From positions 3,590,524 through 3,654,523 of the forward strand of contig NZ_CM001484.1 of NCBI RefSeq assembly GCF_000243395.2: DNA of 64,000 nucleotides. Direction: 5' to 3'. Below are positions 54,217 to 59,108 of the stretch, piece by piece. Both the position numbers and the translations under genes were made by a program. Every line of letters starts with the position of its first letter. Positions within the stretch are counted from its first letter, which is position 1. Origin of the DNA: Saccharomonospora glauca K62 (GTDB lineage: Bacteria; Actinomycetota; Actinomycetes; Mycobacteriales; Pseudonocardiaceae). The notes under the pieces are model-generated. The model saw only the letters and a list, made by a program, of their open reading frames with translations, did no database searches and was not told the DNA's origin.

Positions 54217-54232
54217 ATGAGAGAACTCTCAT
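54217..54232 (+). promoter_or_regulatory. regulator box 1 (kinase-fold gene)
   Basis: ATGAGA-GAAC-TCTCAT, a perfect 6-4-6 inverted repeat. It runs into direct repeats TCTCATC and CCTCATC spaced 11 bp. A -10-like CAGGCT (54265-54270) starts 33 nt after the box, and ATG 54277 follows 6 nt later, so the message may be leaderless. The same arrangement occurs at 55470 and 58502. Confidence 0.65.
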
Positions 54233-54276
54233 CGGGGCCTCATCGAACCCCCACGGACGTGGTCCAGGCTCGGTGA

Positions 54277-55473
54277 ATGACCGCTATCCCGACTCGTTCC
54301 CGTACCCGTGACCTGGACCTTCTGCTCGGTGAGGCCGCGAGGGACCTCGTCGGCACCGTTCTCGACGCCGTCTCGGACATCGGGGAGGTGAACTCGGTAC
54401 GCCCCACGGCGGTGACCGTGAGGCCGTCCGGTGACGCCCTCGTCCGCTACGCCGTCGAGTTCCGGCGTCGAGACGGGACGGTCGCGCGGGAGACCCTCGT
54501 CGCGGCCACCGGGTCGCTCGTCCCCTCGGGCGCCGCCGTGGTGGCGGGAGAAGTCGACGGTGGGCGCGTCGAGGTGGGGCTGTGGCGGTGGCCGCACGAC
54601 CCCCTTCTGCCCGCGTTGTCCCACGTCGTCGACGGCGAGCGGCTCCGGACCCTGCTGGCGAAGGCAGGCGTGTCACCGACGGCCGCTCCGACCGTTCGGG
54701 TGCGGTCGTACCGGCCTCGGCGAAGCGCGGTACTGACGATCACCTGCGGAGCCGACCAGCTGTTCGCCAAGGTCGTTCCTCCCTCGGAGCTTCCGGGACT
54801 GCGCAGACGGCACGCCCTGCTCGCGCCTCACCTTCCGGTGCCGCGCCCCCTCGTCACCACCGACGACGGGCTCGTGCTCGTGCCGTCCCTGCCGGGCACT
54901 CCCGGCCGCACCGCACTGCGACGGGAAGATCGGCTGCCCGGCCCCTCGGTGTTGGAAGACCTGCTCGACCGGCTTCCGCATGCCCTCACGACCCTGCCGA
55001 GCAGGTCGAATCACCGGCGACGCGCCCGTCACTACGCGGAAGTCCTCGCCCTCACCGTGCCCGAGGTGGGCGACGAGGCGACCGCCCTGGCCGACGTGAT
55101 CGCCGAGACCGACGCCGGGGAGTACCCCGTGGTGCCCGTCCACGGCGACTTCTACGAGCACCAGCTCCTCGTCCACGCGGGGACGGTGACGGGGTTGCTC
55201 GACATCGACACGGCCGGTCCGGGGGAACGGCTCGACGACTGGGCGAACTTCCTGGCCCATCTCGCGATCACCGGCACCCCACGGGCTCGCGACTGGGAAC
55301 GGGACATCCTCCGGCACGTCCGGGACCGTTTCGACCCGGGGCACCTGCGCCCCCGAGTCGCGTCGGCCGTGCTGGGCCTGGCCACGGGCCCGTTCCGGAC
55401 GCAGAGCCCCGAGTGGACGGTACGGACCCGAGAGCGCGTCGCCCTTGCCGGTCGGTGGCTCTCCCGTTCATGA
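54277..55473 (+). CDS. kinase-fold phosphotransferase (APH/maltokinase-like)
   Basis: 398 aa. The C-terminal lobe has the aminoglycoside-phosphotransferase-type catalytic loop VHGDFYEHQLL (His289-Gly-Asp291) and the metal-binding DIDTAGPGERLDDWANF (Asp309/Asp311). The N-terminal about 150 residues are atypical, followed by VLTITCGADQLFAKVVP, a strand with the ATP-binding Lys. The substrate is unknown: sugar, small metabolite or antibiotic. It is likely leaderless from ATG 54277 and controlled by box 1. Its last codons overlap box 2 of the next gene. Confidence 0.82.
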   Translation: MTAIPTRSRTRDLDLLLGEAARDLVGTVLDAVSDIGEVNSVRPTAVTVRPSGDALVRYAVEFRRRDGTVARETLVAATGSLVPSGAAVVAGEVDGGRVEVGLWRWPHDPLLPALSHVVDGERLRTLLAKAGVSPTAAPTVRVRSYRPRRSAVLTITCGADQLFAKVVPPSELPGLRRRHALLAPHLPVPRPLVTTDDGLVLVPSLPGTPGRTALRREDRLPGPSVLEDLLDRLPHALTTLPSRSNHRRRARHYAEVLALTVPEVGDEATALADVIAETDAGEYPVVPVHGDFYEHQLLVHAGTVTGLLDIDTAGPGERLDDWANFLAHLAITGTPRARDWERDILRHVRDRFDPGHLRPRVASAVLGLATGPFRTQSPEWTVRTRERVALAGRWLSRS

Positions 55474-55485
55474 GAACGCCCTCAT
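55470..55485 (+). promoter_or_regulatory. regulator box 2 (Asp/Thr/Pro-repeat gene)
   Basis: ATGAGA-ACGC-CCTCAT overlaps the stop codon of the kinase-fold gene. CTCATC, a weaker CTTCGA and CTCTCACC continue at 11-bp steps to about 55508. A -10-like AATTCT (55518-55523) starts 33 nt after the box, as at the other two copies. Confidence 0.6.
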
Positions 55486-55567
55486 CCACGTCTTCGAGTT
55501 CTCTCACCCACCCCCGGAATTCTTGATCACGTCGGAAACGAACACGTTCTTCGGAAAGGACACGACA

Positions 55568-55939
55568 ATGGCCGCACGCCCCAGCTGGAAGATCCTCACC
55601 GTCGGCGCCGCGCTCGCGGGCCTGGGCCTCGCGGGCACCGGAATCGCTCTGGCGGACGGCAACGGCGACGCCTCGCGCGTCCGGCCGATCGAGGTGACCG
55701 CCGCTCAGCCGGCTTCCTCCCCGACCTCGGCCGCCCCGAACACCGACGACGTCGACGACACGGCGGGCAAGGGGGCGACGAACGATCAGGACAGTCCCGA
55801 CACCACGCCGGACGGCACCCCCGACGACACCACGCCTGACAACGACACCCCGGACAACACGCCCGACAACACGCCCGACGACACGCCCGACGACACGCCC
55901 GACAACACGCCCGACGACAACACCCCGGACAACGACTGA
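55568..55939 (+). CDS. secreted acidic Asp/Thr/Pro-repeat protein
   Basis: 123 aa from ATG 55568, after GGAAAGGA. Signal peptide KILTVGAALAGLGLAGTGIALA, then a short linker and about 60 residues of imperfect TPDN/TPDD repeats to the end, extremely acidic. There is no TM or anchor after the signal. It could bind cations or act as a wall-spanning spacer. It is transcribed toward the response regulator gene and ends with a shared terminator. Confidence 0.8.
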   Translation: MAARPSWKILTVGAALAGLGLAGTGIALADGNGDASRVRPIEVTAAQPASSPTSAAPNTDDVDDTAGKGATNDQDSPDTTPDGTPDDTTPDNDTPDNTPDNTPDDTPDDTPDNTPDDNTPDND

Positions 55940-55951
55940 TCCGACCGCGAT

Positions 55952-55979
55952 CGGCCGGGCTCACCTCCGAGTCCGGCCG
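55952..55979. terminator. bidirectional terminator between acidic-protein gene and response regulator
   Basis: Stem CGGCCGG-G-CTC / GAG-T-CCGGCCG with a 6-nt loop, between the convergent stops at 55939 and 55990. There is one G-T pair. It suits both directions. Confidence 0.7.
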
Positions 55980-55989
55980 GTCTTCCGGT

Positions 55990-56655
55990 TCAGTCGCGTT
56001 CCTCCAACCGATAGCCCATTCCCCGCACCGTGATGATCCGGTCGGCTCCGAGCTTGCGCCGCAGGTACCGGACGTAGACGTCGACGACGTTGGATCCCGG
56101 ATCGAAGTCGTAACCCCACACCTGACTGAGCAACTGCTCCCGTGACAACACCTGGCCGGGATGCCGCAGGAACGTCTCGGCCAACGCGAACTCCCGAGCC
56201 GACAGATCCACCGTCTCGGTGCCCACATGGGCACGTCGCGTTCGGAGATCGAGCTGCAGCCCGCCGTAGGACAGCACGGTCGGTTCGGTGGCCCGGTCGG
56301 ACACCAGCCGAAGTCGCACGCGCGCCAACAGCTCCTCGAACCGGAACGGCTTGGGCATGTAATCGTCCGCGCCGCCCTCCAGCCCCGCGACCGTGTCCTG
56401 CACCGAGTCCCGCGCGGTCAGGATGATCACGGGAATCGGACAGCGCTCAGCGCGGAGTTTGCGCAGGACCGTGAACCCGTCCATGCCCGGCAACCCGATG
56501 TCGAGCACCATGAGGTCGAACGAGCCCGTGAGCGCGTACTCGTACGCGGAAGGCCCGTCCTCCACCACCGTGACCGTGAAGCCGTTGGCCGTGAGTCCCT
56601 TGTTGACGAACGCGGCGATACGAGACTCGTCCTCCGCGACCAGAATGCGGCTCAT
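55990..56655 (-). CDS. OmpR-family response regulator
   Basis: 221 aa. The receiver domain has Asp52 as phospho-acceptor (MVLDIGLPGMDG), an acidic pair at Glu8/Asp9 and the Lys in MPKPFRFEELL. The winged HTH (about 125-221) has LSAREFALAETFLRHP and the recognition helix NVVDVYVRYLRRKLG. ATG 56655 overlaps the kinase stop by 4 bp (ATGA). OmpR-class regulators bind direct repeats about 11 bp apart, the pattern in the three nearby boxes, so it is the natural candidate regulator. Its signal is unknown. Confidence 0.95.
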   Translation of the reverse strand: MSRILVAEDESRIAAFVNKGLTANGFTVTVVEDGPSAYEYALTGSFDLMVLDIGLPGMDGFTVLRKLRAERCPIPVIILTARDSVQDTVAGLEGGADDYMPKPFRFEELLARVRLRLVSDRATEPTVLSYGGLQLDLRTRRAHVGTETVDLSAREFALAETFLRHPGQVLSREQLLSQVWGYDFDPGSNVVDVYVRYLRRKLGADRIITVRGMGYRLEERD

Positions 56656-58151
56656 CGCCCTCCCTCGTTGTGCCTGCCCGGATGCGGTGGGGCCGCCACG
56701 ACGGGAACCTCCACCGTGAACACGGCTCCCCGCCCAGGTTCGCTGTCCACCGTCACTCGTCCGCCGTGGGCGACGGCGATGGCCCGCACGATCGACAGGC
56801 CCAGTCCCGCGCCCTCGGAACGCCGACCCGAGCTTCCCCTCGCGAATCGTTCGAAGATGCGCTCGCGATCCTCCTCGGCGATTCCGGGACCGGAGTCCGC
56901 CACCCGGAATCGGATGACGTCGTCGCCACCGTGGGAGGCGAACGTGATCCGCCCGCCCTCGGACGTGTAGCGGACCGCGTTGTCGGCGAGGGCGACGACG
57001 GCCTGCGTGATGCGCTGGGGATCGAGCACCGCCGGGGTGTCGGCGACGTGGTCGAGCACCCAGTCGCGCTCGCCGAGGCCGGTGATCTTGTCGAAGATCG
57101 CTTCGGTGAGCGCGGCGACGTCTACGGGTTCGGCGTGCAGGAACTCCGGCTGTTCCGACCTGGCGAGCAGCAGCAGGTCCGACACCATGCGGTTCATGCG
57201 CACCAGCTCGTCGTCCACAAGTGCCACGGTGTCCCGGACGTCCTCGGGGTCGGTGGGGTCGAGAACCTCCAGGTGCCCCCTGACGATGGTGATCGGGGTC
57301 CGAAGCTCGTGCCCCGCGTCGTCAACGAACCGGCGTTGCACAGCCACGCCGCTCTCCACACGGTCGAGCATCGCGTTCACCGTGTCGACGAGTTCCCCGA
57401 TCTCGTCGCCGGGACGGTGCGACGGACGCGGGATGCGGCGGGAAAGGTCGGTGTCGGTGATCGACCGCGCCGTCACGGTGATGTCCCGGAGGGGCCGCAG
57501 AATACGACCGGCCACGACCCACGCGCCCGCGGCGACGAGCAGGATCGTCCCCGCTCCCGCACCGAGCATGAGCCGCGCGATCTCGTTGACGTTCTGTCGT
57601 TCCTGATCGGCGAAGTACGCGGCGACGATCACTCCCCTGCGGGGATCGTCCGCCAGCCGCACGGGAACGGCGAGGTAGCGCACCTCTCCGGCCGCGCTCT
57701 CGTAGCTCCCCTCCTCGGGCGCCTCCACCGTCGACACCAACGCGGTGAACTTCGGGTCGTCGGCCAGCAGCACCGGCGCCTGCTGCCTGCTCTGGTAGAC
57801 GAACGTGCCGTCGACATAGCCGAGGAACTTCTCGTTCGGCCTGGCCAGGTTGTAGGTGATGGCGATTTCGAGGACCTCGTCCACGCCGGTGAACGGTTGA
57901 CCGGTGGCGGGGTTGAGGCCGCTTTCGGTGAGGGTGCTGAACTCCTCGATCTCACCGCGCAACGCGTCGTCCATGCGGTGGTTGACGTCCTCCACCGAAA
58001 GCCGCCACGTCACAAGGGTGAGGACGGCCAGCGCCACCAGCACCAGCAGCAGCATCCAGCCGATGATGCGGGTCCGGGCCGTGGACGGCCCACGGCGGCG
58101 GGGCGTGGGGACGGACTCGGACTGCGTTCGGGGCGAAACGGTGTCGGTCAT
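56652..58151 (-). CDS. sensor histidine kinase partner of the OmpR-family regulator
   Basis: 499 aa. TM1 about 30-49, an external sensor domain of about 140 residues (50-192), TM2 about 193-215, then HAMP and the H-box DDAGHELRTPITI with His281. HATPase boxes: N (VALADNAVRY), G1 (DSGPGI) and G2 (GAGLGLSIV). The external domain shows no recognisable fold and few Cys. The ATG shares its A with the stop of the poly-Asp gene (TGATG), so the acidic protein, the kinase and the regulator are translated as a unit. Confidence 0.95.
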   Translation of the reverse strand: MTDTVSPRTQSESVPTPRRRGPSTARTRIIGWMLLLVLVALAVLTLVTWRLSVEDVNHRMDDALRGEIEEFSTLTESGLNPATGQPFTGVDEVLEIAITYNLARPNEKFLGYVDGTFVYQSRQQAPVLLADDPKFTALVSTVEAPEEGSYESAAGEVRYLAVPVRLADDPRRGVIVAAYFADQERQNVNEIARLMLGAGAGTILLVAAGAWVVAGRILRPLRDITVTARSITDTDLSRRIPRPSHRPGDEIGELVDTVNAMLDRVESGVAVQRRFVDDAGHELRTPITIVRGHLEVLDPTDPEDVRDTVALVDDELVRMNRMVSDLLLLARSEQPEFLHAEPVDVAALTEAIFDKITGLGERDWVLDHVADTPAVLDPQRITQAVVALADNAVRYTSEGGRITFASHGGDDVIRFRVADSGPGIAEEDRERIFERFARGSSGRRSEGAGLGLSIVRAIAVAHGGRVTVDSEPGRGAVFTVEVPVVAAPPHPGRHNEGGR

Positions 58152-58456
58152 CAGTCGTCGTCCGCGTCGTCATCGTCGTCGAAGTCGTCGAAGTCGTCGC
58201 GATCGTCCACGTCGTCGAGCGCGGGCGGCGGCTGCACCATGCCGTCGTCATCGTCGTCATCGTCATCGTCGTCCCCGTCCGGCCGGGGAGTCGGGGTCGG
58301 CGAGGACACCCCGCTGCCGGGCGGCACAGAAGGCGTGCTGACGGTGATCGGTTCGGGCAGCGGTGGCGGGGTCTCGGACCGGGTGAGCAACAGCACCGCC
58401 GCCAGCATCCCACCGACCACGAGCAGCGCCGACACGATCGCGAGCGGACGTTTCAC
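58151..58456 (-). CDS. membrane-anchored poly-aspartate protein
   Basis: 101 aa from GTG 58456. One N-terminal TM or uncleaved signal (residues 5-24), a Pro/Ser/Thr linker, a run of ten Asp (62-71) and a terminal stretch made almost only of Asp with Phe spacers (81-101). It is predicted to hang outside the membrane. First gene of the operon with the kinase and regulator. An extracytoplasmic cation buffer or sensor accessory is a reasonable guess. TRX-like GTC/GAC triplet repeats make its length prone to change. Confidence 0.8.
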   Translation of the reverse strand: MKRPLAIVSALLVVGGMLAAVLLLTRSETPPPLPEPITVSTPSVPPGSGVSSPTPTPRPDGDDDDDDDDDDGMVQPPPALDDVDDRDDFDDFDDDDDADDD

Positions 58457-58463
58457 CGGGCCG

Positions 58464-58517
58464 AGTCTAGGTAGCGGAGGTGGCACGGCCGTGAGAATTG
58501 GATGAGAACACTCTCAT
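58464..58517 (-). promoter_or_regulatory. regulator box 3 and promoter of the two-component operon
   Basis: On the minus strand ATGAGA-GTGT-TCTCAT (58502-58517) is a perfect 6-4-6 inverted repeat, followed by TCTCAC 11 bp on. TAGACT (58464-58469), a good -10, begins 33 nt from the box. GTG 58456 lies 7 nt after it, so the mRNA is probably leaderless. This matches boxes 1 and 2 and implies autoregulation. Confidence 0.7.
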
Positions 58518-58564: not shown

Positions 58565-58774
58565 GTGGCCGTGCGCGCCCCACCGACCTTCGCCGGGAAA
58601 CCGACATTGGAAGGTCACCGGATCCGGCTCCGGCCCGTGACCGAGGCCGACGCGCCCGCCCTCCTCGCTTTGCTGGCGGCCCCGGAGGTACGGCGTCTCA
58701 CCGGTACCCACCGGTCCCCCTGGGGCAAGGAGCCGGAGCAGGCCGAGCGGTGGCATGCCACTCCTCGTCGGTGA
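58565..58774 (+). pseudogene. GNAT acetyltransferase, N-terminal fragment
   Basis: 69 codons reading TLEGHRIRLRPVTEADAPAL, the opening strand and helix of RimJ/RimL-type GNAT N-acetyltransferases, then LLAAPEVRRLTG and EQAERWHAT. Homology-like sequence ends at the palindrome 58750-58761; a few out-of-family codons lead to the stop. Full GNATs have about 170-190 aa and the acetyl-CoA site is missing. The gene has lost its 3' two thirds. Confidence 0.75.
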
Positions 58775-59108
58775 GGAACACCTGCGCCACGTTGGCGGTC
58801 ATCGTCGCGAGGTCGGCCGAGAACGCCGGGACCACCGTGGCATCCCCGTGCAGCCAGCGCACCCGGTCGGCGAACGGCTTGGCCCTCGCGACGTCCAACG
58901 ACGCGGCCGCTGGCTCGACACCGATCACCTCGAAGCCGCGTTCGGCCAGCAAGCAGGCGAACGTTCCCGTGCCGCACCCGACGTCCAGCACTCGGCGAGC
59001 ACCGAACTTCTCAGCCATGGCGAGGTAGGGGTCGAGATCACCGCGGTCGGGGTCCAGCGGGTCGTACAGTGGGGCGTGGCGGGAGTCGGCGTAGAGGGCG
59101 TCGGGCAC
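58698..59108 (-). pseudogene. class I SAM methyltransferase, C-terminally truncated
   Basis: 136 codons from GTG 59108 (MPDALYADSRHAPLYDPLD). The SAM-binding motif I VLDVGCGTGTFACLLAERG, motif post-I VIGVEP and LHGDATVVP are intact. The chain then reads TANVAQVFLTDEEWHAT and changes to ARPAPAPCPRG at the palindrome 58750-58761. Related proteins continue for another 100 or so residues. It runs into the GNAT fragment from the other side; both break at the same place. Confidence 0.75.
58750..58761. repeat. perfect 12-bp palindrome at the junction of two gene fragments
   Basis: GTGGCATGCCAC is its own complement. It marks where the GNAT fragment and the methyltransferase fragment both lose family resemblance, each reading Trp-His-Ala-Thr into it from its own strand. 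Confidence 0.8.

Follow-up and report, generated by a model that had tools for sequence, protein, structure and literature searches.

A gene cluster within a 64,000-nucleotide stretch of the Saccharomonospora glauca K62 genome (contig NZ_CM001484.1, positions 3,590,524–3,654,523 of the forward strand; this whole stretch is the window below) probably forms a regulon of three promoters under a CusS/CusR-like two-component system, with a polyanion output at the cell surface. Its promoters, P1 to P3, share the 16-bp box ATGAGA-N4-YCTCAT, which a pattern scan of the window recovered at 54217–54232, 55470–55485 and 58502–58517, in agreement with an earlier, sequence-only reading of this DNA. P1 precedes an operon for an acidic protein, the sensor kinase and the response regulator, P2 the gene of an exported Asp/Thr/Pro-repeat protein, and P3 that of a kinase with the aminoglycoside phosphotransferase (APH) fold. 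At the level of sequence the box, its spacing, its exclusivity to the cluster and its conserved target genes are established, and we infer that the regulator binds the box and activates the promoters. The elements of the cluster, in window coordinates, are:

54217–54232, plus strand: P3 box, before the APH-fold kinase gene (pattern and profile)
54239–54243 (CTCAT) and 54250–54255 (CCCACG, weak), plus strand: further half-sites of P3
54265–54270, plus strand: P3 −10-like hexamer CAGGCT, with a start codon 6 nt downstream (leaderless type)
54277–55473, plus strand: APH-fold kinase, 398 aa (Pfam APH, 3.3e-10)
55470–55485, plus strand: P2 box, before the repeat-protein gene (pattern)
55492–55496 (CTTCG, degenerate) and 55503–55508 (CTCACC), plus strand: further half-sites of P2
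55518–55523, plus strand: P2 −10-like hexamer AATTCT, followed by an untranslated leader with GGAAAGGA
55568–55939, plus strand: exported repeat protein, 123 aa, with a signal-like N-end ending ALAD and then TPDDTPDN repeats
55990–56655, minus strand: OmpR/PhoB-class response regulator (Pfam Response_reg and Trans_reg_C)
56652–58151, minus strand: sensor histidine kinase with an extracytoplasmic PDC/PAS-like domain, HAMP, HisKA and HATPase
58151–58456, minus strand: acidic protein, 101 aa, first gene of the sensor-kinase operon (GTG start by comparison with relatives)
58464–58469, minus strand: P1 −10-like hexamer TAGACT
58479–58484 (GCCACC, weak) and 58491–58495 (CTCAC), minus strand: further half-sites of P1
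58502–58517, minus strand: P1 box, before the operon of acidic protein, sensor kinase and regulator (pattern)

A chance origin of the box is ruled out by whole-genome counts and a reversed-pattern control: the exact pattern occurs at three places only in the 4.56-Mb genome, all in this cluster, and the reversed pattern at none. Rarity in the genome was one of the checks by which the sequence-only reading had agreed beforehand to stand or fall. Within the window, six strand-matches were found at up to one mismatch, compared with a mean of 0.14 and a largest value of 2 in 100 shuffles. A looser pattern (position 11 free, one mismatch) gave 21 strand-matches across the genome, six at the three cluster places and 15 elsewhere; because those 15 stand against four in the control, weaker sites elsewhere are possible by pattern alone. 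With a profile covering the 58 positions from box to −10 and trained on 70 promoters, the window's three among them, the cluster sites reached E values of 3.4e-9, 5.8e-8 and 6.4e-6, the next best site in the genome scoring 0.12. Exact boxes and profile sites below E 0.1 lay only before the cluster's genes, with none before metal efflux or resistance genes.

Counted from the start of the box, half-sites occupy positions 1–5 (inverted), 12–16, 23–27 and 34–39 and the −10 element positions 49–54, and the half-sites at 12, 23 and 34, in 11-bp steps, are conserved over the 70 promoter rows. Conservation of columns 1–6 and 11–16, which served to select the rows, is no proof alone, but columns 17, 23–25, 36, 37, 50 and 54 reach at least 1.5 bits though not used in the selection. 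In all three promoters the −10-like hexamer starts exactly 33 nt after the end of the box, as had been pointed out, and that of P3 has the conserved A and T columns. The last of the tandem half-sites, about 11 bp apart, ends 9–10 nt before the −10, as expected of the OmpR/PhoB class; such a gap is typical of activated OmpR/PhoB-type promoters. As to the 11-bp repeats proposed earlier, the spacing held but not every copy did, the middle repeat of P2 being degenerate (its clear copy is the third) and the third repeat weak in P3 and P1. The P2 box is an imperfect palindrome and overlaps the upstream kinase gene at its stop codon.

The inverted first half-site is unusual for the head-to-tail dimers of OmpR-class regulators and counts against our interpretation. 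A plain head-to-tail OmpR box without the palindrome was insufficient as a description, ATGAG at positions 1–5 being as fixed as CTCAT (both were used in choosing the rows), and while the 11-bp steps agree with the OmpR-class binding spacing first suggested, the palindrome is closer to a box of the CusR type than to a simple OmpR direct repeat. P1 and P3 appear to be of the leaderless type and P2 to have a leader. For P1 we read it so because the start codon falls directly where transcription should begin: the first usable one lies 60–62 nt from the box start in 39/51 cases with an acidic open reading frame (ORF). An earlier in-frame start precedes in the other 12/51, the window's included, where the GTG at 58456 lies 7 nt after the −10 and the frame is also open from 58486.

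The regulator is indeed OmpR-class, with Response_reg and Trans_reg_C both far above their gathering scores, and is 63–95% identical across 79 loci. Its gene overlaps that of the sensor kinase and the two are conserved as a pair, so that the label 'orphan' given to the system has to be dropped. The sensor domain is modelled as PDC/PAS-like, all fold matches being weak (best E 1.5e-3, WalK; KinD; CzcS). Best NCBIfam matches of regulator and sensor kinase are heavy-metal subfamilies, TIGR01387 (CusR-like; 207.1 bits, below the cut-off of 279.2) and TIGR01386 (211.6 bits, below 292.55), which places the regulator nearest the same broad subfamily as that of Escherichia coli CusRS/PcoRS, cut-offs unreached. 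The E. coli CusR box AAAATGACAAnnTTGTCATTTT, quoted in the Discussion of PMC11195947 as ATGAcA-N4-TgTCAT, has the same 16-bp geometry as ATGAgA-N4-TcTCAT here and differs by one base per half-site, and a very small autoregulated regulon is a further likeness. All this, together with the zinc sensor CzcS among the weak fold matches, would suit a CusRS-like system responding to metals or cations, with acidic proteins that just bind cations and an APH-fold kinase of unrelated role. We regard this as unlikely: both NCBIfam scores lie under the curated cut-offs, no metal transporter or chaperone is among the three targets here, and the Ser/Thr association described below would go unexplained. Unlike CusRS, the window adds 11-bp direct repeats, its sensor-kinase gene precedes the regulator gene, and its promoters serve acidic exported proteins and a kinase instead of copper efflux. 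As the signal for the regulon that we favour, a metal, a cationic peptide or another envelope stress is our guess.

Conservation of the box upstream of the same genes was found in the genus, the family and the class. Confinement to this genus is ruled out by the recurrence of box and target genes over many genera, and the same recurrence removes the notion that the system is peculiar to Saccharomonospora. Within the genus, 8/12 genomes (8/9 of good quality) have the box, seven with three places in one cluster and one (G011) with two, the reversed control giving 0; in the family it occurs in 53/150 genomes and the control pattern in 9/150. Profile sites at E ≤ 1e-4 are present in 91/394 genomes of the class and 39/138 genera, and at E ≤ 0.001 in 37/301 genomes of one family and 32/396 of one genus. 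A box with at most one mismatch lies within 700 bp before the sensor-kinase match in 58 of 80 named loci (those kept from a sensor-kinase search in which more matched), including loci of Saccharomonospora, Pseudonocardia, Geodermatophilaceae, Mycolicibacterium, Rhodococcus, Frankia and Nonomuraea. Box, spacing and targets thus recur as the proposal of an autoregulated system with three promoters would predict. An acidic exported-type ORF follows 51/59 P1 boxes and 34/56 other boxes (P3 boxes included), as compared with 40/4000 positions drawn at random from these loci with the module left in and 0/3840 from their first 4 kb.

The 22/80 loci that lack a P1 box at this stringency weigh against the autoregulated arrangement; they comprise three on contigs that begin too near the kinase (L063, L076, L099), ten of Streptomyces type and nine others. 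In nine of the ten Streptomyces-type loci an acidic protein and the two-component pair are preceded by a variant box, ATGAA-N6-TTCAT (one mismatch allowed), which CTCAT follows at a distance of 11 bp. That another regulator reads the box, the two-component genes being one target among others, would accord with sites in some relatives that lie far from the pair, but it is highly improbable given that the box stands before the pair in 58/80 loci found with the kinase and that in the Streptomyces-type loci a more distant pair goes with a changed box at the same place. Compared with the window, these loci (L120–L133) have the variant box ATGAAG-N4-CTTCAT and, in 9/10, a second one, behind which stands an SLC13/CitMHS-type transporter gene (Pfam on L130 only). 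Going by gene order, SCO2142/SCO2143 are probably the Streptomyces form of this type. In a table of PMC9739842 these two Streptomyces coelicolor genes are an unnamed pair of kinase and OmpR-type regulator; the likely Streptomyces pair appears, again unnamed, as a CssRS candidate in a passage of PMC3498368 and in a mutation table of PMC11272600. Mycobacterium smegmatis MSMEG_0244/0246 was set aside as a candidate, being described as closest to PrrAB in a passage of PMC7516205, and among the matches listed in our literature searches there was no paper on the box or module.

In the mechanism that we propose, the sensor kinase would phosphorylate the OmpR-class regulator, which would occupy half-sites at 11-bp steps ending 9–10 nt before the −10 and activate the operon that encodes it, together with the acidic membrane protein and the sensor kinase, as well as the genes of the exported repeat protein and of the APH-fold kinase. 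Less certainly, negative charge might come from phosphate in the presence of a kinase and from additional Asp in its absence. Both proteins earlier called acidic and exported are acidic, but that of P1 lies in the sensor-kinase operon and, with its hydrophobic N-end, Pro-rich middle and Asp tail, is probably membrane-anchored. By eye, P1 proteins form a family (hydrophobic N-end, LxPIxV, Pro-rich middle, PPPxxDDDD tail); neither the window's member nor the exported repeat protein had a match at E ≤ 0.01 in Pfam, NCBIfam or PHROGs. The APH-fold kinase scores 40.6 bits for PF01636 (cut-off 23.2), its catalytic residues K165, H289-G290-D291 and D309-x-D311 are identical in 25/25 aligned rows, the window's included, and its model has a predicted local distance difference test score (pLDDT) of 91. 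It does not reach the NCBIfam equivalog for aminoglycoside phosphotransferase APH(3') (20.1 bits versus 205), has APH as sole Pfam match at E ≤ 0.01, with no CotH-family domain, and gave zero phmmer matches to PDB chains at E ≤ 0.1.

Two points go beyond the sequence-only reading, a polyphosphate-polymerase branch, treated below, and a link between this kinase and how much Ser/Thr the exported repeat protein contains, which is what the comparison newly suggests. Among the initial 38 loci whose P2 protein is acidic, the Ser+Thr fraction of the last 45 residues was 0.13–0.31 in the 22 with an APH gene and averaged 0.03 in the 16 without. After 80 further stretches had been added, at least one Ser/Thr occurred in the last 15 residues in 71/71 rows with a kinase (60 APH, 11 Ser/Thr kinase) and none in 27/33 kinase-less rows; for distinct proteins the figures are 70/70 and 20/26. 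Asp+Glu in the last 30 residues averaged 0.60 without a kinase (28 rows) versus 0.24 with one (60). A genome-wide search at E ≤ 1e-20 found no APH gene in 12/12 Rhodococcus-type genomes or in the 11 that carry the Ser/Thr kinase, and at E ≤ 1e-15 none was found in 12/12 named kinase-less genomes or in that of L058 (Pseudonocardia nigra). Mycobacteria repeat the contrast: 14/30 genomes have the APH gene, and the tail of the protein is WDDSWDDSWDD-like where the kinase is present but WDDWHDDWQDD-like where it is absent. As an internal control, the tails of P1 proteins do not track the kinase, their Ser/Thr content being 0.046 with APH, 0.044 with the Ser/Thr kinase and 0.064 with neither.

In the f41 and f27 lineage, a kinase of the PF00069 kind appears to replace APH, and the repeat protein is again Ser/Thr-rich. 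The protein-kinase gene, with the motif HLDxKPSN in all 11 loci, follows that of the repeat protein on the same strand in 10/11 and has a box of its own in L265; the Ser/Thr-kinase label comes from a profile built on two sequences, both PF00069 by Pfam, which the other nine match.

It is thus quite possible, though short of probable, that the substrate of the APH-fold kinase is the exported repeat protein, with Ser/Thr as the phosphorylated residues. We give serious weight, again short of a likelihood, to an alternative with the same regulon in which the APH-fold protein is a small-molecule kinase for a sugar or drug and Ser/Thr content an unrelated habit of lineages. The nearest solved folds are mycobacterial maltokinase and antibiotic kinases, the best match being maltokinase Mak (4u94; extra domain before the kinase lobe; TM-score 0.46, 15% identity), and low-complexity repeats drift fast. 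A 93-row tree built from kinase plus regulator shows just five changes of kinase state and three of Ser/Thr state, and four independent pairs gave 2.0 the same way, 0.0 opposite and 2.0 equal (sign test p 0.5), a paired test that cannot reach significance because kinase changes on the tree are too few. An earlier set (79 rows, other threshold) gave three pairs, 1.2 the same way and 0.0 opposite. Against this alternative stand Ser/Thr in 71/71 rows with a kinase and 6/33 without, the contrast repeated inside mycobacteria, the substitution by an unrelated protein-kinase-type gene in another lineage, and P1 tails that are independent of the kinase. Three kinase-less groups on the tree agree with the association, namely Actinomycetospora, L068/L083/L097, and Rhodococcus and kin.

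Beyond the tree and pair counts, several observations tell against phosphorylation of the repeat protein. Six kinase-less rows retain Ser/Thr (L058, L106, L336, L352, L370 and L373; L336, L370 and L373 are not on the tree). In L058 (8834–9031, minus strand) 140 bp separate the P3 and P2 boxes and hold only the opening and closing codons of the APH-fold kinase gene, which was probably lost recently; in L106 and L352 the acidic tail itself is gone, and L336 (genome G328) has kept a Ser-rich protein without an APH match. The 15-residue span was chosen after the first data, and kinase-less rows without Ser/Thr fall to 24/33 at 20 residues and 21/33 at 30. By pattern, no DFG motif was found in the 11 Ser/Thr kinases (L257 reads DLS), which makes their activity uncertain. 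The APH protein has, by eye, no hydrophobic N-end and would therefore have to act before export. Finally, the tables were curated by hand, rows being dropped from one of 108 before the final counts: nine resembling P1 proteins (L071, L074, L084, L092 +, L098 +, L266, L269, L323 +, L326), ten other or wrong-frame products (L206–L209, L220, L117, L119, L122, L212, L316) and second rows of one locus. L213, L255, L260, L267 and L338 were counted as kinase-bearing on an APH-type gene elsewhere in the genome. The final 104 rows include 15 mycobacterial rows and L068 added by hand, omit stretches repeating counted genomes, and keep identical-protein pairs (seven kinase-less and one with a kinase, L105/L210).

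The f34 genomes bear on both the nature and the modification of the repeats. Their exported repeat protein is Ser/Thr-rich and hardly acidic, which speaks against our reading and rules out acidity alone as the shared trait of the exported protein. In sequence its Ser/Thr-Pro/Ala repeats resemble O-glycosylated linkers, as they should if the exported repeats were glycosylated and the kinase merely co-occurred; yet the co-regulated partner, in the window and in relatives' loci, is a kinase and not a glycosyltransferase, and we think glycosylation improbable.

Targets of the promoter vary by lineage, and on sequence polyanions are their common theme: exported proteins rich in Asp, a kinase of APH-fold or Ser/Thr type, and DUF4956-VTC. 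L215, L217, L218, L261 and L262 each have a DUF4956 gene (Pfam in every case) immediately behind the box and following the regulator gene; a VTC-domain gene comes next in L217, L218 and L261 (Pfam) and in L215 (by eye). The APH-type kinase is absent from the three DUF4956-VTC genomes searched (G094, G026, G250). These polyphosphate-polymerase pairs share the box and lie outside the window's regulon. In the f16 genomes an additional site outside the module stands ahead of a lipoprotein gene whose product ends in an acidic stretch, with an MFS transporter nearby; the lipoprotein is DUF7282 by Pfam in L206, with similar genes in L207–L209 and L220. Genome G305 (L210–L214) has, on sequence, an expanded regulon, with six to eight sites by threshold that precede, among others, a phytase-like lipoprotein (in L210, the same as in L105), an MFS transporter and a second repeat protein. 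In L253 and L329, of two families, sites precede a gene that by eye resembles a glycosyltransferase, and L254 has a strong site before a gene of unassigned type.

Taken more widely, and only tentatively, the system might be an actinobacteria-wide surface-polyanion switch, in which an ancient conserved promoter architecture turns on each lineage's own polyanion maker, be it an Asp-rich exported protein, a Ser/Thr-repeat protein with an APH-fold or Hanks-type kinase, or the DUF4956-VTC polyphosphate polymerase. The repeat protein would then be phosphorylated before export, and on loss of the kinase Ser/Thr would be lost and Asp gained. If so, a little-studied, widely conserved actinobacterial signalling system would gain a DNA code, a small regulon and a concrete output, an APH-fold kinase would have a protein substrate, a polyphosphate-polymerase family would be tied to a sensor system, and dedicated phosphorylation of exported repeat proteins would have a bacterial counterpart outside spores. 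The known module of that type, CotH–CotB/CotG, belongs to the spore coat, and to our knowledge has no such two-component box. In Bacillus subtilis, as described in PMC7821199, a dedicated atypical kinase goes with Ser-rich repeat surface proteins; the kinase of the window, by comparison, matches the APH family and no CotH family. With three promoters to the regulon, the claim is testable in one strain.

Just past the P1 box, at about 58570–58775 on the plus strand, lies a stretch that by eye resembles a GNAT acetyltransferase and runs for some 60 codons before a stop; at the same place beyond the P1 box, the relative L055 has a GNAT-acetyltransferase-like frame of 210 aa.

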